A stretch of 43,503 nt of DNA from a virus: IMG/VR virus record IMGVR_UViG_3300006339_000004, positions 1 through 43,503 of that record; one strand, 5' to 3'. This document shows, in pieces, positions 3,418 to 30,227 of the stretch; the stretch's first letter is position 1; each line of letters begins with the position of its first letter. Position numbers and translations under genes: made by a program. A model generated the notes under the pieces. The model saw nothing but the letters and a program-made list of their open reading frames with translations. It was not told the origin of the DNA and did not search any database.

Positions 3418-3818
3418 TTATTCTTCTTATCCTTTATCAACTTTAATAAATCTGTAGTTGATCCAACATACAAATTATTATTAACTGATGCTGGTCCTGT
3501 TGGTGCTTTGTTTGTTAATTCTTTTTTAACTTTTTGAAGATTTACCAATTTTTCATTAGTTTCTCCAAGATTTTTAATCAGTTGTGAAGCAACTTCAAAA
3601 TGTCTTGCATGCTCTGTCGATTTTGCTATTTCTAATAATTCATCTAATGCGTCATGTCCCTTTTCCATTAAATTATAATAATTTTCTCTTGAATATCTAT
3701 AATCAGTTTTAAAATCCTCATCATCTGAATCTACTGTTAATCTTTTTTCCGTCTTTTCTGGAAGAGTTGTTATTGGGTCTTCAACCAAAACTTCTTGAAC
3801 TAAATCTTTTATGTCCAT
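3414..3818 (-). CDS. terS: Terminase small subunit (T4 gp16-like)
   Basis: A 134-residue protein with the core of T4-type small terminases: DYRYSRENYYNLMEKGHDAL, the helical stretch LLEIAKSTEHARHFEVASQL and GETNEKLVNLQKVKKEL, then a C-terminal VGSTTDLLKLIK. The subunit forms a ring that recognises DNA concatemers and regulates the large terminase during packaging. The long central helices form the predicted coiled-coil ring core. It overlaps gp15 by ten bases. Unusually, the large subunit is not the next gene: six genes separate the two subunits. Confidence is high because of sequence pattern plus its position after gp15. Confidence 0.88.
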   Translation of the reverse strand: MDIKDLVQEVLVEDPITTLPEKTEKRLTVDSDDEDFKTDYRYSRENYYNLMEKGHDALDELLEIAKSTEHARHFEVASQLIKNLGETNEKLVNLQKVKKELTNKAPTGPASVNNNLYVGSTTDLLKLIKDKKNK

Positions 3819-7553: not shown

Positions 7554-8646
7554 CTACTGCTTTATAACCTAATCCTTCATTAACAAATCTTACTGCATTT
7601 TTTAATGTTGATTCATTTACCGCTTCATACATTCTTTTTATAATAAACTCAGAGTCTTGTCCAATAAATACCCCATAATTTCCTAATTTTTTTAATCTTT
7701 CTTTTTGAAATTCCTCATCGAACCACGTTTTTGTTGCAATTGTTACCATATCATGATAATATACACTATCCGTAGTCACAAAAAAACTTTTTTGAATACC
7801 ATCTCTCCACAATCTCAATAAAACATATGCATCATAAACCTCTCCTTTGGGTTTAAATCCATGAGTTTGTTCAAATATATAATCGAAACATAATCCTTTA
7901 AGTTCAGGATTTGGATCATCTACCCATTGACCTGTTTTATAATTCATTTGACAATGATGAAACCATATTTCAAGTTCATTGTTAGATAATGCTTTTTTAT
8001 ATTTTGCATTACCTGTATAATTCTGAAAGGTGTCTCTACTTACATTCAATTCTCCATTTACAAATGCTACAATCCGCGCTCCTCCACTTTTCATACCTTT
8101 AACAATAATTACTCTATCTTTAAAACATTTCATAAATTTATCCATATCATTAGTCTCTGGACACACCATTAGTCCCGCCGCGAAATGATCTGGTTCTGAT
8201 CCACCCCCAGGATTAAGTGCGAATTTTTGTTTATGGAATTTTGGATTATAATCTATCCTTTTGGGAATAAGCATATTGCCAGGATGAATTAATATTGGTT
8301 TATATTTTCTAAAATCATAATTTCCAACATCTTCTAATAATGTTGCCATAGCATTTCCACCATGACTAGTCATCATATAATTACCGTATTTCAATTTACT
8401 TTCAAATTTTCTTAGAGCATTTTTTCCTCTATTTCCTGGGATATATTTAAAATCTATTTGTTCAATATTACCTGATAAATTATTATTCATATGTTTACCC
8501 CAAAGCCATGCCCATCTCGAGGTTCCTCCTGGCTTTGGTGAACTAGGAATAACTGCGTACATTGTATCAGCATTAACCTGGCTGACCATAACCATTGTAC
8601 CAAAAACAAACAACATACATAATACTAATTGAATAAATTTAAACAT
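7531..8646 (-). CDS. tctC: Tripartite tricarboxylate transporter substrate-binding protein (TctC-like)
   Basis: A 371-residue protein with an N-terminal signal peptide (hydrophobic about 5-22, ending near SQVNA). PSSPKPGGTSRWAWLW resembles the ligand-loop region of TctC/Bug binding proteins, where GG-T-D is typical, and the downstream GNYMMTSHGGNAMATLL fits the second loop. It is longer and more divergent than usual TctC (about 320). The main support is its position: its ATG overlaps the stop of the adjacent TctA-like permease by eight bases. It would bind a di- or tricarboxylate in the periplasm and pass it to TctA. No TctB small subunit is visible. The family call is moderately sure; the substrate is unknown. 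Confidence 0.68.
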   Translation of the reverse strand: MFKFIQLVLCMLFVFGTMVMVSQVNADTMYAVIPSSPKPGGTSRWAWLWGKHMNNNLSGNIEQIDFKYIPGNRGKNALRKFESKLKYGNYMMTSHGGNAMATLLEDVGNYDFRKYKPILIHPGNMLIPKRIDYNPKFHKQKFALNPGGGSEPDHFAAGLMVCPETNDMDKFMKCFKDRVIIVKGMKSGGARIVAFVNGELNVSRDTFQNYTGNAKYKKALSNNELEIWFHHCQMNYKTGQWVDDPNPELKGLCFDYIFEQTHGFKPKGEVYDAYVLLRLWRDGIQKSFFVTTDSVYYHDMVTIATKTWFDEEFQKERLKKLGNYGVFIGQDSEFIIKRMYEAVNESTLKNAVRFVNEGLGYKAVVKHIHSP

Positions 8647-10084
8647 AATCCACCTTTACTTTTTTACTAAAAATGACCATCAATATTGATAACAACATTA
8701 TTATAATAACGAATGGTCTTATAATTATTTCTTGAAAACTATACAAATCTATCAATTGATATGAAAATTGTTCTAATCTTTCACTCAAAATAAATCCCAA
8801 CAATACCGCTGGCCTGCTAATTTTAAAATGCTTCAGTATAAACCCACAAAATGAAAACACAATAAAAAATATTGAATCTTCTAAAATAAATTCATAAAAA
8901 TTTGAACTTATTATTGCCCACCATGTAACAAGTGCAACAAATGCTATGAAAAAATATTTATTGATACGAAATATTTTAGATATCGGCCCGGCTAATAATA
9001 ATCCAAAAATTGTAACTGAAATAGTGCCGACTAGATAACCAATTATTATAGAATTTATAAAATTTTTATCCTCTAATATATATAAATCTCCCATAGGAAA
9101 TCCAATATATTCCCATAATCCCATCGCGATCATTGCCCATGTTGCACCAGGAATACCTATGAGAATAGTGGGTATTAATGCTCCTGCCTTGCCGGCATTA
9201 TTAACTCCTTCTGGTGCGACTATACCTTCTGGCGCGCCCTTACCAAATGGAGTTGAAAATACCCTTTTCATTTTTGTCGCTATACTATAAGAAATCCATT
9301 CTGATCCGCCACCACCATATCCCGGCAATAGTCCATAGAAAAACCCAATTAATCCCCCAACAAAACCATGTTTCCATAAACGTATTGCATCAATTATACC
9401 TTTTTTTATTTGTTTAAAGTCACTATTTTCTTTAACAGATTTCATATCAAATTTACACAATGTATATAATTCTGGAATACAAAATAATCCTGATGCCAAT
9501 ACTGCAATACCTATACCGTCATAAAGATAATATTCCATTCCAAATGTAAATCTTGGATTTCCTGTAACATCAGAACCAATTGATCCTAAACCAACACCTA
9601 TAATTACTGCTAAAATACCTTTTAATGGTTTATTACTTGATAATAAACTTACACTCAAAAAACTAAACAATATAATAACCCACATCTCAGGAACTTTCAT
9701 ATATTGTAAAATATATTCATATAATGGAAGAACAATAAGAAATGGAACAAACCAAATAATACCTTGTATACCACTAGTGGTTAATGCTAAACTAATTGCG
9801 TAAGAACTTTGTCCTGCTTTGGTGAGTGGGAATCCATCAACCATTGTCGCCGCAGAAGAATTAGATCCGGGAATTCCAATATAAACTCCTGAAAAACTAT
9901 CTCCTATTGTGCACGCAACAACCGCTGCCATAGAAAATGCGACAAATTCATATGGTATATGTGAAAAATGATTTACAACACTAAACAGCATTATTAATGC
10001 TTTGGTGGGCCCTGAAACGGGAATTATGCCTATAAATAATCCATAAAGTGAACCCAATATAGTCCACATCAACAATTCAAACAT
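8639..10084 (-). CDS. tctA: Tripartite tricarboxylate transporter permease (TctA-like)
   Basis: A 481-residue integral membrane protein with about ten to twelve hydrophobic spans, close to the usual TctA length of 500. Hallmark family motifs are present: the loop IGIPGSNSSAATMVDGFPLT (about 69-88), GLLPGYGGGGSEWISYSIA, GIVAPEGVNNAGKAGALIPT and LIGIPGATWAMIAMGLW. TctA is the sodium- or proton-coupled large subunit of a citrate-type carboxylate transporter of the inner membrane. The expected four-helix TctB is missing, and the final 150 residues do not look like an obvious TctB fusion. Such a transporter in a phage would boost host carbon uptake during infection, which is inference. It follows a small unknown gene after 15 bases. 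Confidence 0.9.
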   Translation of the reverse strand: MFELLMWTILGSLYGLFIGIIPVSGPTKALIMLFSVVNHFSHIPYEFVAFSMAAVVACTIGDSFSGVYIGIPGSNSSAATMVDGFPLTKAGQSSYAISLALTTSGIQGIIWFVPFLIVLPLYEYILQYMKVPEMWVIILFSFLSVSLLSSNKPLKGILAVIIGVGLGSIGSDVTGNPRFTFGMEYYLYDGIGIAVLASGLFCIPELYTLCKFDMKSVKENSDFKQIKKGIIDAIRLWKHGFVGGLIGFFYGLLPGYGGGGSEWISYSIATKMKRVFSTPFGKGAPEGIVAPEGVNNAGKAGALIPTILIGIPGATWAMIAMGLWEYIGFPMGDLYILEDKNFINSIIIGYLVGTISVTIFGLLLAGPISKIFRINKYFFIAFVALVTWWAIISSNFYEFILEDSIFFIVFSFCGFILKHFKISRPAVLLGFILSERLEQFSYQLIDLYSFQEIIIRPFVIIIMLLSILMVIFSKKVKVDYV

Positions 10085-13061: not shown

Positions 13062-14486
13062 TTATATTTCACTATGTGGTTTAATACTCAATGTTGATAT
13101 TATTTCATTAGGAAAATCATCTAACAAACTTACTAATTTTGATTTTTGATGTTTCGTTTTTCCACCATAATACAATTTTTCAGTAACATGATATATATTA
13201 TGCGGACGTTTATATTTTTGAAGTTCTTCAAACCGTTTAGCAAGATTATTAATATCAGCCGATCCTGTATAAATTACATAATGTATTTCATCACGAGAAC
13301 AACTTGATACCTCATTAACTCCTGGTTCTAGTAATGCTTGAGCCTCTACTAATCCTGTGTAAACTTTTACGCCATCTTTCATAAAAATTACATCATCAAA
13401 AACTCTACCATCATAATACCATTTTCCGTTCGCAATTTTCATTTTATCACCATCAGTCATCCAATCATTAAGTCCATACTTGTACCACAATACGCCCCCA
13501 TCATCTACTTTTAATTCTCCCCAATAATAAGTTTTATAAAAACCATAAAAATTATCTAATGAATCTCCTGGCCTATATTCAGATCTTGTATGACAATCCG
13601 CTTCAGTGCTCGCCATTACATTATAAATTACTTTCCATTTAAACTTTTTCTCAATATCTCTAATAATATTTTCTCCCGTATGCCCTCCAGCAAATTCCCA
13701 ATAATCTACCTCAAAATCAAAATCATCAGGACATGCATCAAGTAATCTTTTTACAGCATTAGGATAAGACGCCACAAGATTTGGTTTCACTTTTTGAAAT
13801 TGTTCTGGAATATTATCCACTGTTTCATTTATAAAATGAATTGTTCCGCCTGTATAATAAGCTCTAGCTAAATTCCAAACAAGATAGGTTGATTCAAATC
13901 CTCCATTTTGTAACATTATGGGTCTTTTATTATTAAAAAGTTCAGGGGATACTTCTTTCAAATGTCCGGTCATAGAACCCATTGTACAACCCCTCAATGT
14001 TTCCCCATTAACATTAGCTTGAGCATGATCCTCATAATCCCAAAAAAATGGCCATAATTCAAATATAGGTTTTACTGTAGTACCACTAGTCATTCCTCTA
14101 TACATCTCATTGGGGTGTAATAATGTGGAAGGAATTTTGCCCTCACTATCTGGTTCATGTAACATTTTAATTTTATTTGAACGTATAACACAACTGGCAT
14201 TACTGTCACCAATTAAAGAATCTAATTCTATATTTGATTGATCTGCTGAAGCTTGACTAGCTGATCCACCATTTTTTATACTAGCAAGAATCCATAACAT
14301 ATCATCCAGAGTTTTAACTTCTTCAGCTACTACAAAAACAACATGAGGTCCCAATCCGTGTTTTTTTAAAATTTCAATTTTTTCATCTAACATGTTATGT
14401 AAATTTTTCCATGTAACATGTTCTGTTGATAAACTTATGAATACATCATCTTCATTAAGCGGTGCTTGATATTGTTTTAGTGTCAT
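13062..14486 (-). CDS. Adenylate-forming (ANL superfamily) enzyme, acyl/aminoacyl-activating type
   Basis: A 474-residue enzyme with ANL core motifs in order: phosphate loop MTSGTTVKP (132-140), the A5 motif YNVMASTE, the A7-like TDGDKMK, the A8 hinge YYDGRVFDDVIFMKDGVKVYT and a C-terminal GGKTKHQKSK that could supply the catalytic A10 lysine. It activates a carboxylate as an acyl-adenylate, then transfers it to CoA, a carrier protein or another acceptor. It is slightly shorter than typical acyl-CoA ligases, and the A3 loop ends in V-K-P rather than G-x-P-K. Located between the TauD-like dioxygenase and a small cupin-like protein. No carrier-protein gene was seen nearby. Confidence 0.83.
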   Translation of the reverse strand: MTLKQYQAPLNEDDVFISLSTEHVTWKNLHNMLDEKIEILKKHGLGPHVVFVVAEEVKTLDDMLWILASIKNGGSASQASADQSNIELDSLIGDSNASCVIRSNKIKMLHEPDSEGKIPSTLLHPNEMYRGMTSGTTVKPIFELWPFFWDYEDHAQANVNGETLRGCTMGSMTGHLKEVSPELFNNKRPIMLQNGGFESTYLVWNLARAYYTGGTIHFINETVDNIPEQFQKVKPNLVASYPNAVKRLLDACPDDFDFEVDYWEFAGGHTGENIIRDIEKKFKWKVIYNVMASTEADCHTRSEYRPGDSLDNFYGFYKTYYWGELKVDDGGVLWYKYGLNDWMTDGDKMKIANGKWYYDGRVFDDVIFMKDGVKVYTGLVEAQALLEPGVNEVSSCSRDEIHYVIYTGSADINNLAKRFEELQKYKRPHNIYHVTEKLYYGGKTKHQKSKLVSLLDDFPNEIISTLSIKPHSEI

Positions 14487-14932: not shown

Positions 14933-15578
14933 TTTTTCTTATCTCTATCAAATTTTTAAGAGTTTCATATACATACATTTTATATTCTTCATCTGTACCC
15001 TCAAATAAATCACGCATAACTGCATCTTTATTTTCTTCTAATCTTTTTGCATGAGATGTGAGATAATTTGGTCTAAAATCTGACAAGTTTAAATAAGCTG
15101 GAAAGTTTGCAGTAGTTTTTAAATAATGCTCAACAACAACATTTATATCATTTGGTATTATTTCTTCTATCCTAGCATTAGGAAACGTTGCTTTTATTTT
15201 TGACTTTGTTACATGCACAGGATACATTATATATTTTCCACTTTCCATTATTTCTAAACCACCTCGTGCCTCAAACAGTTTTTCAAATAATGGATAATAT
15301 TCATCAATATCATTATAGTAAGGTTCAATTACATTAAATAATGGGGGTAACATTTTGCCGTCTATCATTCTATCAAAATGATTTGGAGCAACTAATCTGC
15401 GTGATATTGAATATTCATTGATTGATGTATCAAGTGGAACTATACCATTTTCTTTACAAGAATACCAATATACGTCATCATTATCATTAGCAAGGTTTCT
15501 GCCTAATCTATGTCCACCCGCACCTTGTTCAAATGCAATGAATAAAAATTTATCATGTTCAAATAAGTCTACCATCAT
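14925..15578 (-). CDS. Unknown soluble protein with a glycine-rich N-terminal loop
   Basis: A 217-residue protein. I chose the tandem ATG at 15573-15578 (MMVDLFEHDKFLFIAFEQ) over an upstream TTG because the hydrophobic strand FLFIAFEQGAGGHRLGRNLA then starts naturally near the N-terminus. That strand followed by a GAGGHRLGR loop is reminiscent of a phosphate- or nucleotide-binding loop and of sulfotransferase-type P-loops, but the match is too weak to assign. The rest has YIMYPVHVTKSKIKATFP and a helical C-terminus. It overlaps the end of the small adenylation gene by 20 bases. Function unknown. Confidence 0.5.
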   Translation of the reverse strand: MMVDLFEHDKFLFIAFEQGAGGHRLGRNLANDNDDVYWYSCKENGIVPLDTSINEYSISRRLVAPNHFDRMIDGKMLPPLFNVIEPYYNDIDEYYPLFEKLFEARGGLEIMESGKYIMYPVHVTKSKIKATFPNARIEEIIPNDINVVVEHYLKTTANFPAYLNLSDFRPNYLTSHAKRLEENKDAVMRDLFEGTDEEYKMYVYETLKNLIEIRKND

Positions 15579-16254
15579 AATACATTCTATTATTATTATA
15601 GTGGGATTCAATTAAATAAACTAAATCATTTGTATTATACCAATCATTATAAATGCACGTATCTCCCCTTACAAATAATTTACCATCTTCAATCTTCCAA
15701 TCACAATAATACGTATCACCCAATATTGTTTCTTTTCTTTTAACTTCTTGTATTTGATCCAAATTATAAAACACTTTATTAATTGTTAAGGGTCCTATTT
15801 CACTCATACCCCAATTTGCCATAAATGTTGCTCCTTTGTTTACAAATGATTCTATAATATGCCATTCAACAGGATTGGAACCACAAGTAATCCATATACC
15901 TTTTAAATTTAAATCCTTAAATCCTTTTGTTTTAATAATTGCTTTTGCATGATCTGGAGCTAAATGAGTATGAGTGTATTTGTTAATTTCTTTAGAAAAT
16001 CTATACGCATTAAATTGTTCAACAGTTACTTCTGCACCAATACTAATTGCTGGTAATGTTTGTGCTAATAATCCTCCTGCATGTTCCATTTTACATACGG
16101 TATAGATTTTAGAATTCTTTGATATTTTTTGACTTTCTATTGCAATCTTATTACATGCCTTTAAATTTTCTGGAGTCCTAAAAATATGTTTTTGTATTCC
16201 TGTTGTACCACTACTTTTAACAAAAACTCCTTCGCTTAACATATTCTTGTACAT
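15559..16254 (-). CDS. Miniature ANL adenylation domain
   Basis: A 231-residue protein that is essentially only the middle of an ANL enzyme. The phosphate loop KSSGTTGIQK (13-22) comes right at the N-terminus, the A5-like NWGMSEIG is in place, then YNTNDLVYLI (A7) and finally YYDGRLI (225-231), at which the reading frame stops, exactly where the hinge before the C-terminal lid would begin. Both the N-terminal roughly 150 residues and the C-terminal domain with the catalytic lysine are absent. A GGAA ribosome site precedes the chosen ATG. The protein could be a partial enzyme working with another subunit, a thiol-independent adenylating core, or a decayed copy; tight overlaps with neighbours argue that it is expressed. 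Confidence 0.72.
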   Translation of the reverse strand: MYKNMLSEGVFVKSSGTTGIQKHIFRTPENLKACNKIAIESQKISKNSKIYTVCKMEHAGGLLAQTLPAISIGAEVTVEQFNAYRFSKEINKYTHTHLAPDHAKAIIKTKGFKDLNLKGIWITCGSNPVEWHIIESFVNKGATFMANWGMSEIGPLTINKVFYNLDQIQEVKRKETILGDTYYCDWKIEDGKLFVRGDTCIYNDWYNTNDLVYLIESHYNNNRMYYDGRLI

Positions 16255-16756
16255 TTAATTTCCATATAGTTTGTTCTGTATAATATAATATAGTATCAGA
16301 TACTTTATCGAGTATTCCTTGTTTTGCTAATAAACCCATTAATTTATGATTTCGTAATGCCTTACCACTATGTTCATTGGAAATGTTTGTTGTTATATAC
16401 AAATTATCTGTAGGACAGTAATCTATGAAAACAGGAATAAAATCTCTCCAAGTTATTGTGTTCCAATTACCTTTATTCAGGCCTTTATAAGGACTTGCTC
16501 CGGGTAATTCACATCCTCGAAAATTAATCCTCCAACCATTTTCGTTTATTTCTGGTAAGGGATGACAACCTCCAACCGCAACAATTTCATCATCCTTGAT
16601 AGCACAATAATATTCTCCCCAATCTTTACACCATTCTAATTTCATAGACTTAAAGGATGAGTTATTTGTATATCCTAAGTCTTTACATTTATCACAAAAT
16701 ATTTGGAGTTTGCTATGTAGTTGATTAGTGATTGGTTTTATATTGAAAATCCCCAT
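16217..16756 (-). CDS. GNAT-like N-acetyltransferase
   Basis: A 179-residue protein from the ATG at 16754-16756 (MGIFNIKPITNQ), preferred because AGGAA sits just upstream; an upstream TTG is less likely. AIKDDEIVAVGGCHPLP resembles the beta4 strand entering the acetyl-CoA site of GNAT proteins, and the C-terminal part contains further strands and helices of suitable length, but the classic RxxGxG loop is not evident (NEHSGKALRNHKLMGLL is the nearest candidate). It overlaps the mini-adenylation gene by 38 bases and the QueC-like gene by 19. Function is tentative. Confidence 0.5.
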   Translation of the reverse strand: MGIFNIKPITNQLHSKLQIFCDKCKDLGYTNNSSFKSMKLEWCKDWGEYYCAIKDDEIVAVGGCHPLPEINENGWRINFRGCELPGASPYKGLNKGNWNTITWRDFIPVFIDYCPTDNLYITTNISNEHSGKALRNHKLMGLLAKQGILDKVSDTILYYTEQTIWKLNVQEYVKRRSFC

Positions 16757-17382
16757 GCTCTTTCCTGACACCACCAACATATACCACAATGTCCTAATTT
16801 TGGGTCTTTAACATTTTGTGCTTCCCATTCACATGATCTAGTATATACAAATAAACTATCTATTAAATTATATTCTTTATATATTTGGGCTAGTTTCTTT
16901 TTATCTATATTAATCCAGGGTGTATATGCTTTATTATTATTACGTAAAACGTCTTTCATAATAGTAGGATTTCTGTCTACTTCTGTAACTTCTTCTATAA
17001 ATGTATCAGTAATAGATTTTGGTGGATTAGCAGTAATTCCTGTATAGAAAATATTTATTAATTTATTTTTTCTATAATAATCTAATTTATCAAATATATT
17101 ACTTAATGTTTGATGGTCACAAAATGTACTATGATGTTCTATGTTTATATTTCCGGTTAATTCGATACATTTTTGAATAACATTATTAGTTGTTGTAACA
17201 TTTTTAAATTGTCTTGCTTTATTTCCAGTAGATAAAATATAGATTTTATCATTAGAATATTTCATTAAAAAGTATAAAAGCAAAGAACTATCAGCTCCGC
17301 CGCTACAACTTATACCTATAGGACCTTCATATATTTTTAAATTGACTCCGGATAAATTTAATTCTTTTTTAATTAAATTCAT
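16738..17382 (-). CDS. QueC-like PP-loop ATPase
   Basis: A 214-residue protein with the PP-loop SCSGGADSS (25-33), which binds ATP pyrophosphate, and a C-terminal zinc-type set C184, C199, C202, C205 in TRSCEWEAQ and HCGICWWCQERAWGF. That four-cysteine ending is diagnostic of QueC (7-cyano-7-deazaguanine synthase) and its relatives, which adenylate a carboxylate and replace it with nitrogen. No QueD, FolE or other preQ0-pathway enzyme is visible here, so it may catalyse a different amidation or nitrile-type step. QueC-like proteins also occur in some defence systems. Overlaps the neighbouring hydroxylase-like gene by four bases. Confidence 0.8.
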   Translation of the reverse strand: MNLIKKELNLSGVNLKIYEGPIGISCSGGADSSLLLYFLMKYSNDKIYILSTGNKARQFKNVTTTNNVIQKCIELTGNINIEHHSTFCDHQTLSNIFDKLDYYRKNKLINIFYTGITANPPKSITDTFIEEVTEVDRNPTIMKDVLRNNNKAYTPWINIDKKKLAQIYKEYNLIDSLFVYTRSCEWEAQNVKDPKLGHCGICWWCQERAWGFSI

Positions 17383-18011
17383 GGTTCTATTAGATTTGTT
17401 ACTGTTGACACAGATTCTTCTGTTAATTTAATATTCATTATTAATACAATATGATCATCCTCATCATTGGCATTAAATATTGTATGCCGTTTACAAGTAT
17501 TTAAAAAATATAAACTACCATAATTCCAATGTAATACATTATCATATTGATATATAAAATATCCCCCATCTAACGGATTACATACTAGTAAAGGGACAAT
17601 TAATCTAAAACTATCTATTGTAGATCCCATATTATCTACATGACTTGGAAAAAATCCGCCTGGTTTTAATTTTAAAATATGAGATCTAAATAACCATTCT
17701 TTAAAAGGATCACAATATAATTTTAATACATCATAAACAGGTGTTGGTACAATAAAATCAGATTCAGTTATATTTGTATTATTTTCTTTATTATACTCAT
17801 ATAAACTATCTAAATCAGGCCCAGGTCCTAAATTGCCGTCTAAATTAGTTACACTCAATCCCCAACGATTTATATGTTTTCTAGGATTATATTTTGTCCA
17901 ATTATCATCAAATTGGATTAATCTTTCTAACATAGTCTTCGAATTTTGATATATGTTTAATTTAACTTGATCCCCATATGCTGTTAGAGTATTAAATAAT
18001 TCAAAACTCAT
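17379..18011 (-). CDS. Aspartyl/asparaginyl beta-hydroxylase-like oxygenase
   Basis: A 210-residue protein from the ATG at 18009-18011 (MSFELFNTLTAY), chosen because AGGAG precedes it. Motifs fit the AspH-like double-stranded beta-helix: LKPGGFFPSHVDN with H124-x-D126, the strand SFRLIVPLL, and the distal H176 in FLNTCKRHTIFN. It would use 2-oxoglutarate and iron to hydroxylate a peptide or small substrate. It overlaps the upstream radical-SAM gene by 11 bases. Together with neighbours it suggests radical chemistry followed by hydroxylation, but no target is identifiable. Confidence 0.75.
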   Translation of the reverse strand: MSFELFNTLTAYGDQVKLNIYQNSKTMLERLIQFDDNWTKYNPRKHINRWGLSVTNLDGNLGPGPDLDSLYEYNKENNTNITESDFIVPTPVYDVLKLYCDPFKEWLFRSHILKLKPGGFFPSHVDNMGSTIDSFRLIVPLLVCNPLDGGYFIYQYDNVLHWNYGSLYFLNTCKRHTIFNANDEDDHIVLIMNIKLTEESVSTVTNLIEP

Positions 18012-19032
18012 ACGTTGTATCTCCTGGCCATAGTGGTAATTGTACACCCACTTTTCTTTTTGGTATTTTACTATCAGCAGAACTCACGCAATTATCAGTA
18101 ATGCATGGCATAGGTTTGTCAAATAATTTAAATCCAGTTTGAATATTTCCTAAAGGTATATCAGAGCAAGAATATGACCGCTTAATGCTCCCACAAGGCT
18201 CGCGTATAATAATACTACGATATCCCGACGAACAGATCCAGCCTTTGAATTCATTAAAATTAAACGCATTAAATCTTTCGGCTTGATCCATTTCATGCAC
18301 AATCCCTTTCGAATCAATTAACTCTATTTCCATTTGTGGGGTTTGAGACTCATTATGCAATATGTCTAACTGACTTTTAGTATATCCATCTACTACTTTT
18401 GTCGCCGTAGGATTAGATTGGGGTTTTAAAGTTGTATGAATACCCCTCTCTTTAAAATATAAAACATGATCTGTTAATGTCCAAAATTTCTCAGGTATCA
18501 TTACCATATTAATAGTAATTCTTACACCATTATCTTGACAATATACTAATTTGTCTGTAAATTCTTCAATCTTTTTTTCAGTATCTAAATGTTCAAAATG
18601 AGCAGATGCGGTTATTGAAGCCCTATCAAATTTTTTAGCATATTTGATATATGTTTCAAACCATTTCATCTTTCTTGAACAGTTTGACGTCATATGTATT
18701 CTCTGTCTCTTAGAATATTTATCATCTGCAAGATATTTTAATATATCCAAATATCCAGGATGAAATGTTGGTTCTCCACCAGACAAAGACCAATTAAATG
18801 AATTAAATCCTTGTTCTCTCGCCTGACGTTTTATTTCATCTATTGTTGTTAAACACAACTCTGTAGGTCTATGATCTTTCTTATCTGATCTCGCGTATGG
18901 CCAACAATAAGAACAGTGATAATTACAAAATCTTCCTAATAACCATGACACAGTAAAGGTATCATGATGTAACATGGTTTTTGTTCCTACAAGTTGTATA
19001 TCATCAAATGGAATTTTAGTAAAATCATTCAT
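18001..19032 (-). CDS. Radical SAM protein with C-terminal cysteine region
   Basis: A 343-residue protein. The cluster-binding motif is CNYHCSYC (C36, C40, C43) and GGEP lies at 85-88, so it reduces SAM to a 5'-deoxyadenosyl radical. The C-terminal third has further cysteines (GWICSSG, EPCGS, YSCSD, MPCITDNC) consistent with a SPASM/twitch auxiliary iron-sulphur site, although spacing is not the canonical one. Unlike the five proteins with an N-terminal cysteine domain, it starts directly with the catalytic barrel. It lies three bases into the next gene of the run. Family members modify peptides or small molecules; no precursor peptide is evident next to it. Confidence 0.85.
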   Translation of the reverse strand: MNDFTKIPFDDIQLVGTKTMLHHDTFTVSWLLGRFCNYHCSYCWPYARSDKKDHRPTELCLTTIDEIKRQAREQGFNSFNWSLSGGEPTFHPGYLDILKYLADDKYSKRQRIHMTSNCSRKMKWFETYIKYAKKFDRASITASAHFEHLDTEKKIEEFTDKLVYCQDNGVRITINMVMIPEKFWTLTDHVLYFKERGIHTTLKPQSNPTATKVVDGYTKSQLDILHNESQTPQMEIELIDSKGIVHEMDQAERFNAFNFNEFKGWICSSGYRSIIIREPCGSIKRSYSCSDIPLGNIQTGFKLFDKPMPCITDNCVSSADSKIPKRKVGVQLPLWPGDTTYEF

Positions 19033-21508: not shown

Positions 21509-22885
21509 TCATATTAAATATCGTTCAAGTTGTGGTGTAATATCTAAAACATTCGTTTTTCTTAATTTATCTGCTAATCTGGTATGTTTAATAAATTGCT
21601 CTTTATTATATTTTATATTAGGTAACATCCATCTATCACCTCTTTTTTCAAGATCATCTGGTAACTTGTCTACAAATTCTGAATCTTTTCTATAATGACT
21701 TACATCTTTATTAAGATCTGAATATACTTGCTGAAAACATTCTTGTTCTTCTTCATTAATATTATAATCATATATTACTCTCTCTATTTCACTTCTAATA
21801 AAATCTTTATGATCATCATCTAACCAATGTATATTTAAATGCATTGGTTCAACTATTGGATGTAGTGCCGGTGGATCTATAAATTCAAATCTACGGCTTT
21901 GCTCTATCATCCATGCAACATGATTGTAAATATGGAAAATATTATATACATTTATTACACTATTAAATCCTATACTATTAATATTTGGTAATTCACACGC
22001 TTTTAAGAAATTAGTATGAACTTTTTTCCACTCACATCCTGTTCTACAATATTCAAAAACTTTTCCCAATCCATCAACACTAAACCGTAATTGTAACCCT
22101 TTAAATTGAGAAAGAAGATCAATAACTTTCTTAGGCCAAACTGTACCATTAGTAATTAAATGTAGTTGTATATTTTTAGCATCACCATGTTCAACTAACT
22201 GTTTCCATATTTTTATACAACTTGGATCTATAAATGTTTCTCCTCCAGACATTTTTAACCAACGGACACCTTCAAGATTATAATTATCATATAATCGAGA
22301 ATTATCTTGATCCCAATCAATAGATTCAGCCATTTTCATTTGCCACGGATTATCAGTCCACATATCCCAATATGTACCTTCTAATAAATCATAATTATCT
22401 AAAACTTCCTTTTCTATTTTACTACTCCAAATACTACTACAAGATCGACATTTGGCATTACATAATTTTCCTGGTCGCAAATCTATGTCTATTGGATGGT
22501 CATATATATTTCCTGTTTCAACATTAAATCCCATATTATCCATCGTAATACCTTCTGGTGCATATCTGTTTATAAAATCAATTCTAGCACTTTCTCTTTC
22601 AGCACCAATTTCTTCATAATGCTTACAATAATTACAAGGATGTGAACCATCTTCTAAAACAGGCCACTCATTATTTAAAAAAGCCTTTCTAACAGTTTTA
22701 ATTTTATCACTTGTCCACCACTTTTTTTGCTGATTTGCAACAGTATCACCCTCTCGAATTGCTGGCGTATCAATTCTGTCCATGATATCACTCATGCAAC
22801 ATAATTTAAAAGCACTATTTCCCATACTCGTATAAGTATGTAAAAACGGTGCTGGGCAAAATATTTTCTTAATTTGCTCCCTCAT
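21509..22885 (-). CDS. Radical SAM protein with N-terminal twitch-type cysteine domain
   Basis: A 458-residue protein. N-terminal cysteines C10 (IFCPAPFLHTY), C29 and C30 (KLCCMSD), C84 and C87 (CNYCKHY) form the twitch-type module. The SAM-radical motif is CNAKCRSC (C142, C146, C149), with GGET at 214-217 and a later DGLGKVFEYCRTGCEW. The C-terminus FIKHTRLADKLRKTN, ending LERYLI, is shared with the 434-residue paralogue. The two sit either side of the 390-residue partner-like gene, suggesting duplication of a radical-SAM gene around it. An N-terminal FCPAPF-type phrase occurs in all five twitch radical SAM proteins here. Confidence 0.88.
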   Translation of the reverse strand: MREQIKKIFCPAPFLHTYTSMGNSAFKLCCMSDIMDRIDTPAIREGDTVANQQKKWWTSDKIKTVRKAFLNNEWPVLEDGSHPCNYCKHYEEIGAERESARIDFINRYAPEGITMDNMGFNVETGNIYDHPIDIDLRPGKLCNAKCRSCSSIWSSKIEKEVLDNYDLLEGTYWDMWTDNPWQMKMAESIDWDQDNSRLYDNYNLEGVRWLKMSGGETFIDPSCIKIWKQLVEHGDAKNIQLHLITNGTVWPKKVIDLLSQFKGLQLRFSVDGLGKVFEYCRTGCEWKKVHTNFLKACELPNINSIGFNSVINVYNIFHIYNHVAWMIEQSRRFEFIDPPALHPIVEPMHLNIHWLDDDHKDFIRSEIERVIYDYNINEEEQECFQQVYSDLNKDVSHYRKDSEFVDKLPDDLEKRGDRWMLPNIKYNKEQFIKHTRLADKLRKTNVLDITPQLERYLI

Positions 22886-25362
22886 AATTCTCCCCGTCTC
22901 CTTGCTTTTAACGCTTCACGTATTCCAATTTTAACGTATTTTTCATCATCTAAAAAATCTCTATTACCTTTACCAAGAGCTCTCCATTCTGGCATTTTTT
23001 CAAATCCGTGCCACATTTCTATTCCAGGTGTTAAAATCCAAGGGAATTCACGTGGACCTAACGCTACATGCATACATTTTGTTTCATATAATTTAAATTC
23101 TTTGCAAAGTTCTTTATGCCAGTTTAAATATTTATTAGGTATAAAATCACATGAAAAATTATTCATTTGATGATTCGCTATATGCGCCATTGATAATGTT
23201 AAATGATTATAATCATTTGTTACAGCAATTGTACCATCAGTAAAATTACTATATCTAATTCCTATCCTCGAATGACCTAATCCCAAACTTTTACTTAAAC
23301 TAAAACACACTTCTTTTATGGCAGGATGATTAACATCTATAGTAATATCATAACATGTACCATACCACGCACAATCAATAAGTACTGGTACATCTTTTTC
23401 TAAACATGAATCGAGAGTTTCTTGTAAAAATGGAACTTGATTCCCATTTCCACAAAATGGCATACTAATTATAACCCAATCATTTTTTTGTATTGGTTCT
23501 TGAATATCGTCGTGGGGATATTCCGTATCTATAAATTCCCATTCATTAAAGATTCTTCTATGATAATGATATTCCCCTCGATAAAATCTCAATCTTCTAT
23601 CTTTATATCTAAAATAACTTTCATCAAGTGCTTGAGTAGTACCTATAATTATATGCTTTTGTTTGAATTTGTCTAATCCTTTTATTTTATTTAATTTTGT
23701 TGATTTAATCCATGAGTCTATATTTTTTAAAAACTCTTCTTTACATTCCCAAAATCCCGAAGCTTCAAATTCCTCTTTCCAAGGTAATTCACCTAATGAT
23801 TTTTGAAAATTTGGATCAAAAATTGCGTGGTGCTTATCTTTGAATAATATACTATTCTCTTTTAAAATTCTTTTTTTCCTCGGATAATTTATATTTTTTA
23901 AATGTGCATAAATTGGTTCAGCTATCTCAGGTAAAGATTCTCGAAAATTCTGTGATCTATACTTATCAAGTGCCTCAGTACGATCAATAAACTCTCTAAT
24001 ATGATATGATTCATCTTGTGCCCACATATATTTTAAAATAGAATTTAAACAATTCGTTGTTACATCTATTACATAATCATTATCCACAATATTCTCATAA
24101 TGTTTCCACACCTTTCTCTGTTCTATTAATTTGGGAAACCTTTCTAAAAAACTTTCATATTTAGATTGAACTAATAGTTTTATTCGTTCTGGCAAACATC
24201 TAATATTATAATATAATGGATTATGTAAATGGTGCATACTAAAAAACATATGTTTACCATTTATATTAAATCTTTTAAAATTTTGTTCTATTGTCCATTC
24301 TATTAATTCAGGAATATTCAATACATTAAAAACTTGAACTGTTGTAGTAAACCATCCATTTATATTTGGAATTTGATCAATCTTATGAACCGTTTTTTCA
24401 ATTTTTTTCCAATTACTCGGAAAGCGTATATATTCATTAACATCTTTAATACCATCAACACTTCCGCCCAATTCAACAAGTCTAAAATGTTTCCATAATT
24501 CAAATGCCTTATCAGGTATATTAACTAAATTAGTATTATAATCTAATGCAATACGCTTAGATCTACCTGTGTCAATAAATTTTTGCAATAATTCATAATT
24601 AGCTTTCGCTATAGTAGGTTCTCCACCACTAATATGAATCATTTCAATATTAGGGGCATTTTCAACTATTTGATTAAAAATATCACCACGTTCATGCCAA
24701 CTATAAGGATCAAAACCATCTATACATATTTGACCTTGTTTATCCTTTTTTAAATACAAATACTTATCATCTGCTGCATCATGTCTAAATCTATTCCATC
24801 CAAAAGCATTATACCAATCATCTTTCCAAGGGCTACTTTCTGTCGGTCCGCACATTCTACATTTTAAATTGCACAAATTCCCCAATCTAATATCAGTATG
24901 TAAAATAGGTGAAGAGAAGTCAATAGATCCGTCTGATTTTGTTAAATTTTTAGCGTCATCTATAGTAAAAGGCTGTAGGGTTTTGTCTTCAACTAAAGGC
25001 TTTTCCCACGAAGGACATTGTAATTCAATTTGTCCTTCTCGCAATGCCCTCTGCTCATATCTTCTTCTATCCACAACTCTTCTACTTTGTTGTCCCGCAT
25101 CTTCTTCCTCATTACATCTTTGACATACTGGATGCCTTTCACCTTTTAACATAGATGATCTAACGTCTTTTAATAATTTACAATTTCTTGCTTCATTTAT
25201 AGAAGCATTATCAGCTGTCATTATTTCATTATTATCTTTTCTGCAAACTCCTCTAGTTTTTCTATGAGTATTTGCTTGAACACACATACGATATTGTCCA
25301 TTATTATTAATACTAAAACTAGTCCAAGGGACGGGACAATAACTTATATTATTTGTATTCAT
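22882..25362 (-). CDS. Radical SAM (twitch) fused to a PLP-dependent fold-type-I aminotransferase domain
   Basis: An 826-residue two-domain protein. Residues 1-450 are a twitch radical-SAM unit: C9, C27, C40, C80 and C83, the motif CNLKCRMC (C164, C168, C171) and GGEP (246-249). Residues about 500-826 look like an aspartate aminotransferase-type domain: GTTQALDESYF (574 onward, the PLP phosphate region), D663 in LIDCAWYG where the pyridine-nitrogen aspartate is expected, the Schiff-base lysine K691 in FSLSKSLGLG, and R699 exactly eight residues later as in aspartate aminotransferase. The fusion implies one polypeptide combining radical C-H chemistry with amino-group transfer. I know of no such named enzyme. 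It overlaps its neighbours by four and 14 bases. Confidence 0.85.
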   Translation of the reverse strand: MNTNNISYCPVPWTSFSINNNGQYRMCVQANTHRKTRGVCRKDNNEIMTADNASINEARNCKLLKDVRSSMLKGERHPVCQRCNEEEDAGQQSRRVVDRRRYEQRALREGQIELQCPSWEKPLVEDKTLQPFTIDDAKNLTKSDGSIDFSSPILHTDIRLGNLCNLKCRMCGPTESSPWKDDWYNAFGWNRFRHDAADDKYLYLKKDKQGQICIDGFDPYSWHERGDIFNQIVENAPNIEMIHISGGEPTIAKANYELLQKFIDTGRSKRIALDYNTNLVNIPDKAFELWKHFRLVELGGSVDGIKDVNEYIRFPSNWKKIEKTVHKIDQIPNINGWFTTTVQVFNVLNIPELIEWTIEQNFKRFNINGKHMFFSMHHLHNPLYYNIRCLPERIKLLVQSKYESFLERFPKLIEQRKVWKHYENIVDNDYVIDVTTNCLNSILKYMWAQDESYHIREFIDRTEALDKYRSQNFRESLPEIAEPIYAHLKNINYPRKKRILKENSILFKDKHHAIFDPNFQKSLGELPWKEEFEASGFWECKEEFLKNIDSWIKSTKLNKIKGLDKFKQKHIIIGTTQALDESYFRYKDRRLRFYRGEYHYHRRIFNEWEFIDTEYPHDDIQEPIQKNDWVIISMPFCGNGNQVPFLQETLDSCLEKDVPVLIDCAWYGTCYDITIDVNHPAIKEVCFSLSKSLGLGHSRIGIRYSNFTDGTIAVTNDYNHLTLSMAHIANHQMNNFSCDFIPNKYLNWHKELCKEFKLYETKCMHVALGPREFPWILTPGIEMWHGFEKMPEWRALGKGNRDFLDDEKYVKIGIREALKARRRGEL

Positions 25363-28300
25363 TATACAACTCCTTTAATTCAGGAAAAATTATACTAAAA
25401 TTAAGTTGTCTAATATTTTCTAAATTTTGTATGTATTCAAATGTCTGTGGCAATAAATTAGATTGATCCTCAGACCACATAAATTCAATTAATGATTTTA
25501 ATTTTTTAATTCCATTTGGTTTTTCCAATACTCGATCATAATATTCAAAATTTTCTTCCAACCATTTATAAAAATCATTATATTTGTCTGAAATTTTTTC
25601 TTTATATTCTTTTGTTAAACATTTTACACTTAAAAAATTAGGACTATGTAAAAAATGAATTCCTATCATTCCTCCATGTTCAGGCCATTTATTTATTTCA
25701 GAAATTTCATCTTGTGTCAATTTCCATTTAATAAAATCTGGTATGTGCATTATATTAAAAATACTCGCAGTCGTGTCTATATTAATTTTTATATGTTCAT
25801 TATTTTTTGCAAAATTATTATATTTTATAAGATTTTGCATTGTCGTATCCAATTTACTAGGATATCTTAACCATTCATGACGCTTCTCAACACCATCCAG
25901 ACTCACAGCAATTTCTACTAATGATAACCTCTTTAACATCGAAAATAATTTATCATCAATTTCTTCAGCATTTGTATTAAAGCGTAAATTTGTTGTTTTT
26001 GGAGAATTTTTAATAAAATCCTTAAATTCGTTTATAATTGTAGGTTCACCTCCTAATATATACGCATCTGATATTGGTTGCTCTGATAACTCTTTCCAAG
26101 TTTGTTCATTCTTATACCAATTATATCCACCATTTTGATCCTTCCCCTTAGACCAACTTAATTTGTTTTGTAAATCTGAACTTATATTACTATTCTTCAT
26201 TTTTGTCCAATCCTTTATCCAAAAACTACTATCATCTGGATTACAAGTTGAACAGGCTAAATTACACTTATTTCCTAGTTTTAAATCAACATAATGAATT
26301 TTTGCTGGTGCTTCTCCATCATCTTTAGTATGCCACACAATCGAATTATAATCCAATTTTTTCTTCCATTTTTTATTTTCCCAAATACGTTTGCTATTAT
26401 ATCCAACCTCTTCTTCTTTATAACATTTTTGACATTCTCGTGGTTTATGTCCTTTAAGCATTTCTGAACGCACAGTTTTCATATAATTGGTATTCCAATA
26501 ATCTTTCCAATTATCATGTTTTAAATTAACCAATTGACCATCATCTTTTCTATTACAACCTATTTGTGGATGTTCATCATCACTACTACTATTAGCTGTA
26601 CAACATAATTGCATATTGCCTGTAGTTCTAGTACTTAAATGCATCCAAGGCAAAATACAAAATCCACTATCCTCTTTTTTCCAAGGCGCGGGTGGTGCAT
26701 TATCTAAATAATCAATCATCTCTGATGCTAAATGATTTTTATATTGTTGATTTCTAATATTATCATAAAATCTAGTTGTTTTCTTTAATTGATAATGTTT
26801 TAAATCTTTTATATTATTGATAATTGTATTTTTAACAAAATTCTGAAAGAATTTTAAACGTGGTTTAATTCCTACAACTTCTTTTGTATTTGCTTCAAAT
26901 TTTTCTAAAGCTAATTTTAATAAATCATGATCAATAAATTCAGAATTCAATTCACTACTTTGTGGTATCATTTGGAAATCAACAGCCACATCTATCATTG
27001 CATCAGGGCCATCATGTTCTGAAAGATTTGTATAATATTTTTTATATAACTCGTCTGCCCATTTATAAATATCATCCAAATTAAATATGTTATATGGTTG
27101 AGCAACTATAGAAAATCCTACTGAAACCCTGTTTTGTAAATATTCCTTTTCTTTAAAATGACTAAACATTAAATTAACACTCTTATTCAACATATCCCAA
27201 TTAAAAGGATACCGAATATAATCATAAAGCTTATCAGTACCATCTATAGAAATTCTAAAACGACAAAATTTAAAATGTGAAATTTTTTCTAATAAATCTG
27301 AATTAAATTTTGTACCATTAGTAGTTAAATCTAATACTATATTTTTAGCATAATCATTTTTTATAGCATAATCAACTGCATTTAAAAATTTATGATTAAC
27401 TGTTGGTTCCCCACCAGTAACCTTTAAAACTTCTAATTCTGGTAAAGCGGAAATAACATCTTGTTCTAAAAATGGTTTTTCAGCATGAGATGATAATCTA
27501 TGAGACAATTCTTTTTTATACTTATTATTATTTTCATATTCACCATAATCAAAATGATTTGGTATGCGTTTACCATCATTGACTTGAATGAGTAATTCCT
27601 TTTGATGTTGATCACTACTACCTGCGCTACACATTCTACATGCTAAGTTACACTTATTATCATACTTTATATCTAAATATTTTAATTTTGGTTTTTTCAA
27701 ATTAAATGTATCAATATTATCCGCAAATCTCCCATTCATGGCAATTCGTAAACTTGCGATTCCCATATCTTCTCTTTTCCAACACGTTGAACAAATATTT
27801 GGTCTTTCATTATTTAAAAATTGTTTTCTTATTTTATTCATTTCTGGACTATAAAATGCATCTTTAATTGTAGCAACATTTGCATGTAATGCATCTTGGG
27901 ATGTAACATCTTTTGAATCACTACCCACTCGTAAATTTTTATTACTGTCACAACATACTCGATACCAACCAGCCACACTTGATGTCATATGTATCCACGG
28001 CAATATACAAAAATTTTTTGTAGGAATATTTATGTTTTCCTGTAAAAACTTTTTTGTATATATTTCACCTTGTAAAACTTTTCGACCAAAACTATTATAT
28101 ATTCGTTCTGAATCATCATCATCTAATTTAATATCAGGTAAAAATCCGTACACATATACTTGATCATTTAACTTAGAAATAAGTTTTTTTAATTGCTTAA
28201 AAATATTTGAATAATTTTTATGTTCCCATAATGCATATTCATTAGCATAAACATTACTAACCCATATAAATGTATTTCCTTTGAGATTATTAATTTCATT

Positions 28301-29587
28301 AACCTGCCAACCCTCATAATTATTTAAAATGTCCCATCGCCAATATTGATGTTGTTGTCTATTCTTTACAAATGTTTCCCAATGTTGTACAAAATTTTCT
28401 AATCCTCCCCATCTAGTACATTCTTCTGTCCATAACTCATCAAATTCTATAATATCATCACAAAATTCTATTAAACTATCCTCACTATTTGAATTATCTT
28501 TAAATTTTATATCAACCAATTCATTAAATATATCTTTAAATGTTTGTTTTTTTAGATTCCAATGTTCTGACAATAATCTCTTAAAAGATAAAGCGGGTCC
28601 ACTTATATCATAAAATATAACATTTTCTTTTCCTGAATAATTAAAAGTATTTAAAATATGATTTCCAACAAATCCTGCAGATAATACCACATAATTATCA
28701 AATTGTTTTGGTGCATTTATTCTTTCTAATAAGTTATAAAAATTATTTTCAGGTATTTCTGTTGGATATGGTTCTGAATTAAATGCATATAATTTACTAG
28801 AATATCCTCTAGTTGTAAGTGAAGTTTGATATCTAACCTTAGTTTCCATATCATTAAGCATTTTTTTATCTTGCTGTACTTCATCCAAATAAAAATATTC
28901 TTTACTTTCTCTTATTTTATAATTAAATCCTTCAACATTATATCCATATTTAAAAACTGTATTTAAAAAGTTCCACCCCCATCCCATACGTGATCCCTTT
29001 TCAATTTTTTTCATTTTTAATTTATAATCTCTCGGCTTTAACCATAGAGGTGTATAATCATCATGAAAATCTTCAACACATCTTTCAGGTTCATATAATT
29101 CTTCTATTGTCAAAATACTAGAAGTGTGCAGGTCAGGGCAATGAATATCTTTATAAATTTCCAAATTTAAAAACATCATTTGAGGATGTATACTATACCA
29201 ATTTCTATTCAAATGAATTCTACTTTTAGCATCATTGTCAACAATATGACAAAGCATAGCTGTATTTGGAGAAGCTTCTGCTTGTTCAATCAAATAAAAA
29301 CACGTATCATGACTAAGACGATGTCCCGGTTTTTGAATTAATGCATATTTCCTCTCACTAGATAATGCATCTTTGATACATTCTTGTAAATCATTATTTT
29401 CACTGTAATATATGTTTGCATGAATGTTGGCCAATTGTCCTTGAAGTTTCGATTTTGTAAACTGATCTGCAAGATCAAGTAAATATGGATCATCAATCTC
29501 ATCTTCCCAATCAGAAAAAGTTCTCCAATAGCAAAAATAAATTTCTTTTTCAGCTATCTCATTTAATACTTTATTAGAATTTAACAT
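25349..29587 (-). CDS. Giant protein: N-terminal unknown region plus two tandem radical SAM twitch modules
   Basis: A 1412-residue protein. Residues 1 to about 515 resemble the separate 390-residue protein encoded at 20330-21502, with a Rossmann-like strand VIFYDISGP. The first radical-SAM module has C527, C545/C546 and C599/C602, then CNLACRMC (C646, C650, C653) and GGEP (725-728). The second has C977, C995/C996 and C1052/C1055, then CNLACSTC (C1108, C1112, C1115) and GGEP (1179-1182). Module two is strongly related to the 459-residue protein at 33525-34904 (FCILPWMHLSTR against FCALPWIHLSTR). All cluster ligands appear intact in both modules. Two radical-SAM barrels in one chain may act sequentially on one substrate. 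Confidence 0.87.
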   Translation of the reverse strand: MLNSNKVLNEIAEKEIYFCYWRTFSDWEDEIDDPYLLDLADQFTKSKLQGQLANIHANIYYSENNDLQECIKDALSSERKYALIQKPGHRLSHDTCFYLIEQAEASPNTAMLCHIVDNDAKSRIHLNRNWYSIHPQMMFLNLEIYKDIHCPDLHTSSILTIEELYEPERCVEDFHDDYTPLWLKPRDYKLKMKKIEKGSRMGWGWNFLNTVFKYGYNVEGFNYKIRESKEYFYLDEVQQDKKMLNDMETKVRYQTSLTTRGYSSKLYAFNSEPYPTEIPENNFYNLLERINAPKQFDNYVVLSAGFVGNHILNTFNYSGKENVIFYDISGPALSFKRLLSEHWNLKKQTFKDIFNELVDIKFKDNSNSEDSLIEFCDDIIEFDELWTEECTRWGGLENFVQHWETFVKNRQQHQYWRWDILNNYEGWQVNEINNLKGNTFIWVSNVYANEYALWEHKNYSNIFKQLKKLISKLNDQVYVYGFLPDIKLDDDDSERIYNSFGRKVLQGEIYTKKFLQENINIPTKNFCILPWIHMTSSVAGWYRVCCDSNKNLRVGSDSKDVTSQDALHANVATIKDAFYSPEMNKIRKQFLNNERPNICSTCWKREDMGIASLRIAMNGRFADNIDTFNLKKPKLKYLDIKYDNKCNLACRMCSAGSSDQHQKELLIQVNDGKRIPNHFDYGEYENNNKYKKELSHRLSSHAEKPFLEQDVISALPELEVLKVTGGEPTVNHKFLNAVDYAIKNDYAKNIVLDLTTNGTKFNSDLLEKISHFKFCRFRISIDGTDKLYDYIRYPFNWDMLNKSVNLMFSHFKEKEYLQNRVSVGFSIVAQPYNIFNLDDIYKWADELYKKYYTNLSEHDGPDAMIDVAVDFQMIPQSSELNSEFIDHDLLKLALEKFEANTKEVVGIKPRLKFFQNFVKNTIINNIKDLKHYQLKKTTRFYDNIRNQQYKNHLASEMIDYLDNAPPAPWKKEDSGFCILPWMHLSTRTTGNMQLCCTANSSSDDEHPQIGCNRKDDGQLVNLKHDNWKDYWNTNYMKTVRSEMLKGHKPRECQKCYKEEEVGYNSKRIWENKKWKKKLDYNSIVWHTKDDGEAPAKIHYVDLKLGNKCNLACSTCNPDDSSFWIKDWTKMKNSNISSDLQNKLSWSKGKDQNGGYNWYKNEQTWKELSEQPISDAYILGGEPTIINEFKDFIKNSPKTTNLRFNTNAEEIDDKLFSMLKRLSLVEIAVSLDGVEKRHEWLRYPSKLDTTMQNLIKYNNFAKNNEHIKINIDTTASIFNIMHIPDFIKWKLTQDEISEINKWPEHGGMIGIHFLHSPNFLSVKCLTKEYKEKISDKYNDFYKWLEENFEYYDRVLEKPNGIKKLKSLIEFMWSEDQSNLLPQTFEYIQNLENIRQLNFSIIFPELKELYNEYK

Positions 29588-30227
29588 TATTATATCCGTT
29601 TATGAAATTTTTCCAACTTCTTCTGACAATAGGATTCCAAAATTCTGAATCCATATTACATCCATTAGTAAGAATATGATAACGTGGCTTATCACTATTA
29701 TTAATACACTCATGGTTCCATACATTAGAAAAAAGCCACGTAGATCCATTATCAATTGGGATATTGCCCCATCCTGATACATGAAAATCACAACCTTTTG
29801 GATGTTGAATAGAGAAATGCAGGATACTTGGACCCATTATATCAAGGGTAAGTGGTTGGTCTTCAATATCTCTATCATTATGTAAAAAAATTGAACCTCC
29901 TGGATCAATTTTCATAAATCTTGTTCTTTCATGAGATATTATTCCCGCGTGGTTTTGTAAAAAGTCTTTTGTTTTTGGACATTTATCCGCTATACTTGTC
30001 CAATCATATCTAACATGTTCTAATTCTTCATGATAAACACTGCCGAATTCACCACTAATTCCATGTAATGCTAAACTAGACCAATTCTTTCCACTACTTT
30101 CTCTATATGGTATCCATTCATCTAATTGTTCAACTTCATGTAAAATGTCTTCCCAACGAAATTGAAAGTCAAGCATTAACCACGGCAATGCACAATTATC
30201 TATTGCGTAACTATATTCTTTATTCAT
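29574..30227 (-). CDS. Aspartyl/asparaginyl beta-hydroxylase-like oxygenase
   Basis: A 217-residue protein with a well-formed AspH-like signature: RFMKIDPGGSIFLHNDRD containing H116-x-D118, the strand SILHFSIQHP, a distal H172 in VWNHECINN and R182 in KPRYHILTNG, the arginine expected to bind 2-oxoglutarate. It would hydroxylate Asp/Asn in peptides or a related small molecule. It overlaps the giant radical-SAM gene by 14 bases and the lone SPASM-like gene by eight. Of the putative oxygenases here this and the TauD-like one have the clearest motif sets. Confidence 0.82.
   Translation of the reverse strand: MNKEYSYAIDNCALPWLMLDFQFRWEDILHEVEQLDEWIPYRESSGKNWSSLALHGISGEFGSVYHEELEHVRYDWTSIADKCPKTKDFLQNHAGIISHERTRFMKIDPGGSIFLHNDRDIEDQPLTLDIMGPSILHFSIQHPKGCDFHVSGWGNIPIDNGSTWLFSNVWNHECINNSDKPRYHILTNGCNMDSEFWNPIVRRSWKNFINGYNNVKF

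Follow-up and report, generated by a model that had tools for sequence, protein, structure and literature searches.

A virus gene joining a twitch radical-SAM half to a predicted fold-type-I PLP domain, and the unnamed PLP family to which that domain belongs

We describe a gene on a virus contig of 43.5 kb, IMG/VR record IMGVR_UViG_3300006339_000004 (43,503 nucleotides; this whole stretch is hereafter called the window). Its product is a single continuous chain of 826 amino acid residues, in which a radical S-adenosylmethionine (rSAM) half of the twitch type is followed by a C-terminal half that is almost certainly a fold-type-I pyridoxal 5'-phosphate (PLP) enzyme. An earlier annotation made from the letters alone (hereafter, the sequence-only reading) had proposed this pairing. 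The open reading frame proposed there is a real gene and lies on the minus strand; on the plus strand, stops occur throughout the same interval. The fused chain was intact in other contigs, with homologs at 95-98% and about 70% identity. Comparison with the 70% homolog indicated purifying selection (pN 0.18 vs pS 0.60, nonsynonymous and synonymous, respectively), and both halves were constrained. The components are of known kinds, and no published fusion of an rSAM enzyme with an aminotransferase was found in the open-access literature. The coordinates of the features are given in Table 1.

The rSAM half matched the twitch rSAM model NF033640 from end to end (residues 7-482; E 2e-100; 336.7 bits vs a cut-off of 170), and it also matched PF04055 (E 5e-9). 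The three cysteines of the CxxxCxxC motif and the GGEP motif, which we take to be the contact with the methionine amine of SAM, were found at the positions given by the sequence-only reading. In 37 homologs, C9, C27, C80, C83, C164, C168, C171, G246, G247, and E248 were invariant. The full-length match, the N-terminal cysteine set for an auxiliary cluster, and the CxxxCxxC motif are thus shared with the NF033640 family; the family model has no PLP domain, and the window protein adds one at the C-terminus. The structure model of this half had a predicted local distance difference test (pLDDT) score of 90.8. Foldseek aligned it with SkfB, SuiB, viperin, and BlsE in the core only (template modelling (TM) score about 0.3), and a profile search of PDB sequences gave SkfB, BlsE, viperin, and MoaA.

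For the C-terminal half, the AlphaFold2 model obtained with an alignment of 56 sequences had a pLDDT of 88.6 and a predicted TM score (pTM) of 0.88. Foldseek against the PDB returned 980 matches at E<=1e-3 with aminotransferases on top, and all 50 matches listed were fold-type-I PLP enzymes. A fold search of residues 500-826, which the sequence-only reading had named as the test that could overturn it, gave a PLP fold. Matches to sequence libraries in the same stretch were weak but consistent: Aminotran_1_2 at E 0.046, valine-pyruvate transaminase at 0.009, and 1-aminocyclopropane-1-carboxylate (ACC) synthase at 0.14. The gathering threshold of Pfam Aminotran_1_2 (PF00155), 19.7 bits, was not reached by the whole protein (13.3 bits) or by the domain alone (15.3 bits). 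The same model was matched by 6 of 15 relatives at E<=0.1, the best at 2e-5.

Searches for close relatives returned near-identical viruses only, whether the query was the full chain or the C-terminal half. The wider family was reached through a degenerate DNA pattern with fixed gaps, D-x-A-[WYF]-x-G ... F-S-L-[ST]-K, which gave 28 viral stretches, all 28 of them homologs. The alignment made from these stretches then yielded 145 candidate viral loci in IMG/VR, 80 of which were retained, and eight loci in bacterial genomes. With the family profile, 15 of 291 Bdellovibrionota genomes were positive (two of them at weak E-values), and the members in this phylum lie on chromosomal contigs of 0.9-1.6 Mb. 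A plasmid search for the family gave no match. PHROGs contained no convincing model for it, and Pfam and NCBIfam gave weak matches; the family, of about 310 residues, is unnamed in the libraries searched. Among the isolated phages searched, a member was present in Mosig only. This divergent member, Mosig_00079 of Pelagibacter phage Mosig EXVC030M, is annotated as a putative aminotransferase and matched the family at E 6e-34. Separately, we observed clusters rich in rSAM genes in which two divergent members of the family occur within about 4-12 kb of each other (L148 (G055), L133/L134 (G015), and L075); the L148 cluster is on a contig of 1.6 Mb.

Residues were compared among 54 non-redundant relatives of the PLP half. 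D663, K691, and R699, whose spacing the sequence-only reading had recognized as that of fold-type-I enzymes, were at the positions it gave and were conserved in 54, 54, and 52 relatives, respectively. S688, three residues before the lysine and a predicted phosphate contact, was present in all 54, as were G574, Y600, P635, G640, and G701; T576 was present in 52. The counts for D663 and K691 are partly built in, because the search patterns demanded the D motif or the K motif. Nevertheless, K691 was kept in all of about 35 relatives without the K-motif pattern, and D663 in all five without the D-motif pattern. The spacing of the PLP motifs is not a matter of chance. At position 811, Arg was found in 40 relatives and Lys in 10, the Lys being that of the clade with the fusions; Arg or Lys at a putative carboxylate-binding position would suit an amino-acid donor.

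The model, the Foldseek matches, and the retained catalytic residues together leave the fold and the cofactor class as good as settled, and PLP would be carried on K691. It is extremely unlikely that the C-terminal half is a catalytically dead structural domain with a PLP fold. Such a domain would agree with the short length (about 310 residues) and with a score below the Pfam cut-off in the window protein, but Lys, Asp, Ser(-3), and Arg(+8) are retained in nearly all of the 54 divergent relatives.

The chemistry of the PLP half is a separate question. Its predicted fold is common to fold-type-I aminotransferases (Aminotran_1_2; 2x5d, 3if2, HisC, and valine-pyruvate transaminase), with which it also shares the D, S(-3), K, and R(+8) residues, a G-T-T loop of the phosphate type, and a C-terminal R/K-x-[GNS] motif. 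It differs from them in length (about 310 residues vs about 370-420), in identity (10-16%), and in that the O3'-contacting Asn is not evident. In class I aminotransferases, an Asn usually contacts O3' of PLP; here, S, C, or A near position 637 apparently takes its place. This would suit a decarboxylase, lyase, or cyclase (like CobD, C-S lyases, or capreomycidine synthase) that acts on an amino-acid-like substrate; the rSAM half would modify that substrate at an earlier or later step. The CobD decarboxylase, C-S lyases, and PLP cyclases are in fact among the Foldseek matches of this half, where OrfR and GntC also appear; one family member matches the CobD model L_thr_O3P_dcar and another matches Pyridoxal_deC. 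On the other hand, the best matches in both sequence and fold are aminotransferases, and the amidinotransferase and GNAT genes near the PLP gene in relatives (see below) fit a primary-amine product. We consider these other chemistries a minority possibility, and we favor an aminotransferase with reasonable, but not high, confidence.

Table 1. Features of the fused gene and of the overlapping genes of its operon (window coordinates).
Feature	Coordinates	Strand	Basis
Complete fusion gene (826 aa), twitch radical-SAM followed by fold-type-I PLP	22882..25362	minus	Open reading frame and translation; intact homologs; purifying selection
Radical-SAM half, residues 1-485, N-terminal twitch and rSAM barrel	23908..25362	minus	NF033640; PF04055; model
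Auxiliary-cluster (twitch) region, residues 9-84, C9/C27/C80/C83	25111..25338	minus	Weak SPASM PF13186 match, 9-84
CxxxCxxC motif, C164/C168/C171	24850..24873	minus	Sequence position; invariance
GGEP motif, 246-249	24616..24627	minus	Sequence position; GGE invariant
Inter-domain linker, about residues 486-505, fast evolving	23848..23907	minus	Identity drop; no start codons
C-terminal fold-type-I PLP domain, about residues 506-826	22885..23847	minus	AlphaFold2; Foldseek; family alignment
D663, predicted PLP N1 partner, in LIDCAWYG	23374..23376	minus	54/54; aligns with D of DNAY in 3if2
K691, predicted Schiff-base lysine, in SLSK	23290..23292	minus	54/54; aligns with K of FSLSK (3if2) and FHATK (3ju7)
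R699 (K+8), predicted PLP phosphate contact	23266..23268	minus	52/54; outside every search pattern
K811, presumed substrate-carboxylate cation position	22930..22932	minus	Inferred from R-[VIL]-[GNS]-[hydrophobic] motif
Overlapping gene upstream in the same operon (1412 aa), N-domain of unknown kind and two twitch rSAM domains	25349..29587	minus	Library matches; unfused rSAM counterparts lie ahead of the pair in L054/L064
Downstream overlapping twitch rSAM gene, same operon	21509..22885	minus	Library match; syntenic in L054/L064

Most relatives in the PLP family are separate genes of about 300-330 residues. When the same fusion was sought elsewhere, as the sequence-only reading had suggested, it was found in other contigs in the rSAM-PLP order of the window (L047-L053 and L056) and, as a protein of 709-723 residues, in the reversed PLP-rSAM order (L055/L087, L059, and L060). 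A tree gave a single origin for the rSAM-PLP form and, with moderate support, a single origin for the PLP-rSAM form. At least two fusions of the PLP domain have occurred, with opposite orders and different rSAM paralogs. The rSAM half of the reversed fusion corresponds to another paralog, whose nearest counterpart in the window is the gene at 19029 (26-30% identity), and at these loci a separate gene close by encodes the window-type rSAM. In L054 and L064, an operon in the same order as that of the window encodes, all unfused, the counterpart of the middle rSAM domain of the upstream 1412-residue protein, the counterpart of its C-terminal rSAM domain, the window-type rSAM, the PLP enzyme, and the counterpart of the rSAM gene at 21509.

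These observations bear on how the fusion was interpreted. That one chain combines an rSAM enzyme with a fold-type-I PLP domain was borne out, but the fusion is not the basic unit; the PLP gene is normally separate. As the PLP gene is usually separate, two paralogs are involved, and the orders are opposite, coupling of one particular rSAM-PLP pair is less certain than the sequence-only reading suggested. The fusion may also represent a near-neutral joining of overlapping neighbor genes in a compact, fusion-prone operon, the halves working separately in the same pathway with nothing passed directly between them. Phage genes here overlap by a few bases, the upstream gene is itself a fusion, its two rSAM domains being encoded by separate genes in L054, and the PLP domain has joined different rSAM paralogs in either order, each time beside other rSAM genes of that operon. 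The linker also evolves fast, with an amino acid identity of 46% (residues 486-520) vs 71-74% in the domains when compared with the 70% homolog. Against this, homologs with as little as 70% identity still have the intact fusion, both halves are under purifying selection, and such a fusion arose on at least two occasions. As no ATG, GTG, TTG, or CTG codon occurs in residues 470-530 of the window gene, the PLP half has no ready separate start there. We regard near-neutral joining as a serious possibility that falls somewhat short of an even chance; it is compatible with the chemistry that we propose below and differs on the meaning of the fusion.

The genomic pairing of the two enzyme types recurs. 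In 60 neighborhoods of the PLP gene, an rSAM-like gene was present within six genes in 53, and an rSAM gene was the immediate neighbor of the PLP gene, in the same orientation, in 35 of 53 (66%). Genes of the arginine amidinotransferase family (StrB1-like) were found near the PLP gene in 22 of the 60, in phages as well as in Bdellovibrionota. Directly after one PLP gene (L124:6752-7807), the match to the inosamine-phosphate amidinotransferase StrB1 reached E 1e-89. In streptomycin synthesis, StrB1 adds a guanidino group to an amine that an aminotransferase has produced. In Bdellovibrionota, the PLP gene has GNAT acetyltransferase genes next to it or a short distance away. Amidinotransferases and GNATs are enzyme classes that use primary amines. 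In Mosig, the family member is a separate gene of 262 residues, where that of the window is fused, and it also lies in an island with an rSAM gene, beside the tail fibers. The genes of this island include an rSAM (annotated as MoaA), an epimerase, a carbamoyltransferase, an Asp/Arg hydroxylase, TauD, and an acetyltransferase; a search with the family model for the NF033640 twitch rSAM gave no match in this phage. The amidinotransferase, acetyltransferase, and epimerase neighbors in relatives fit an amine-bearing product.

The island in the window is bordered on one side (3809-5559) by a T4-type tail-sheath stabilizer (gp15) and a neck protein (gp14/gp15 neck genes), and on the other side (40712-41698) by a protein with a match to a baseplate wedge family. 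In pelagimyophages, the cluster for host recognition adjoins the neck gene gp14 and acquires rSAM cassettes (PMC7029224). With the gp15/neck genes on one side and the baseplate protein on the other, the window island has the position of this cluster. Six full NF033640 domains scored above the cut-off in the window, two of them in the upstream 1412-residue protein. Both of these are of the full twitch type, their counterparts are separate genes in L054, and the N-domain that precedes them has about 490 residues.

Several other genes in the window were observed. Two Asp/Arg beta-hydroxylase-like genes occur in the island (29574-30227 and 17379-18047 (-)), and homologs of the former were present in 13 of the 60 neighborhoods, the window counted. 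Two AMP-binding ligase genes (13062-14486 and 15559-16254 (-)) each cover part of their family only, and a QueC-like PP-loop ATPase (16738-17382) is close to them. Genes for a full-length TctA transporter (8639-10084 (-); E 2e-79) and for a solute-binding protein (1043-2158 (-)) are also present in the window of this T4-like virus. A 196-residue protein at 359-949 (-) matched the transmembrane family PycTM of Pycsar effectors (E 3e-22 with Pfam and 4e-17 with PADLOC); a protein of this defense-effector type was unexpected on a phage.

Swap-in cassettes of similar content are known from T4-like phages. The Campylobacter phages CP220 and CPt10 contain an interchangeable cassette with five rSAM genes and a glycine amidinotransferase (PMC2853527). 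The islands studied here are like those of these two phages (L158/L159) in this combination; no member of the PLP family and no NF033640 match above the cut-off was found in either of the two.

A pairing of rSAM and PLP enzymes is also part of phage DNA modification: both take part in the thymidine hypermodification of phages such as M6. That the pair in the window hypermodifies phage DNA bases is nevertheless very unlikely. M6 has no member of the window PLP family, and this family occurs on Bdellovibrionota chromosomes and in a tail-fiber island, not beside DNA-modification genes. We rejected this candidate; the amino-acid:DNA transferase ADDT (PF18724) was detected in M6 (E 2e-48) and in none of 12 other records (the window, 10 related virus contigs, and Mosig), some of which may be incomplete.

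We propose, with about even confidence, that the gene encodes a two-enzyme chain for rSAM oxidation and amine installation, within a biosynthetic island that a T4-like marine phage has in its host-recognition cluster. In the front half, SAM and a 4Fe-4S cluster would generate a 5'-deoxyadenosyl radical, as radical-SAM enzymes do. This radical would abstract a hydrogen from a small-molecule or sugar-like substrate, which would be oxidized (for example, from C-OH to C=O) with the auxiliary cluster as the electron acceptor. The back half, with PLP on K691, would then move an amino group onto the ketone. The reaction by transamination, the order of the steps, and the type of product are part of this proposal, and a sugar or an amino acid as the product is a guess. 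In 2-deoxystreptamine (butirosin) synthesis, a PLP aminotransferase acts after BtrN. BtrN is a twitch rSAM dehydrogenase that forms a ketone in this synthesis (PMC9012708). There, as proposed for the window, a twitch rSAM and a PLP enzyme serve one pathway; the proteins are separate, the twitch of BtrN is C-terminal, and no sequence match to BtrN was found for the window protein.

Several observations weigh against this proposal, in addition to the PLP lyases, decarboxylase, and cyclases among the structural matches. The rSAM model is only weakly similar to known structures, the nearest named relatives of this half include peptide maturases and viperin, and BtrN was not among the matches listed in the PDB profile search and Foldseek. 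An amidinotransferase was searched for in the window and was not found. No single rSAM-PLP pair is preserved, as the reversed fusion uses another rSAM paralog. In addition, rSAM-like genes account for 187 of the 623 neighboring genes (about 30%), which by itself predicts adjacency of about 51%, modestly below the 66% observed. With rSAM genes so frequent in these islands, adjacency on its own counts for little; the repeated fusions and the conserved synteny weigh more.

Taken in parts, the proposal is of unequal strength. Both halves probably act in one pathway, and the fusion most likely joins two genes of that pathway. A direct hand-over between the two active sites is rather unlikely. We also consider it unlikely that the full scheme holds, that is, a single chain in which the ketone passes directly from an rSAM dehydrogenase to the fused aminotransferase, the chain belonging to a swap-in pathway, carried by phages and also found in predatory Bdellovibrionota, for amino- or guanidino-decorated molecules in infected cells.

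Earlier descriptions of rSAM gene cassettes date from 2010 (Campylobacter phages) and 2020 (pelagimyophages). The present analysis defines a small PLP family in many aquatic phages and some Bdellovibrionota, mostly within rSAM islands, and offers a chemical hypothesis for the rSAM cassettes of T4-like phages, in which an amine would be installed after radical oxidation. As a cultured phage-host pair, Mosig on Pelagibacter HTCC1062, has a member of the family, the question is testable. The use to the virus is probably the putting of amino groups on a small molecule or a surface sugar.

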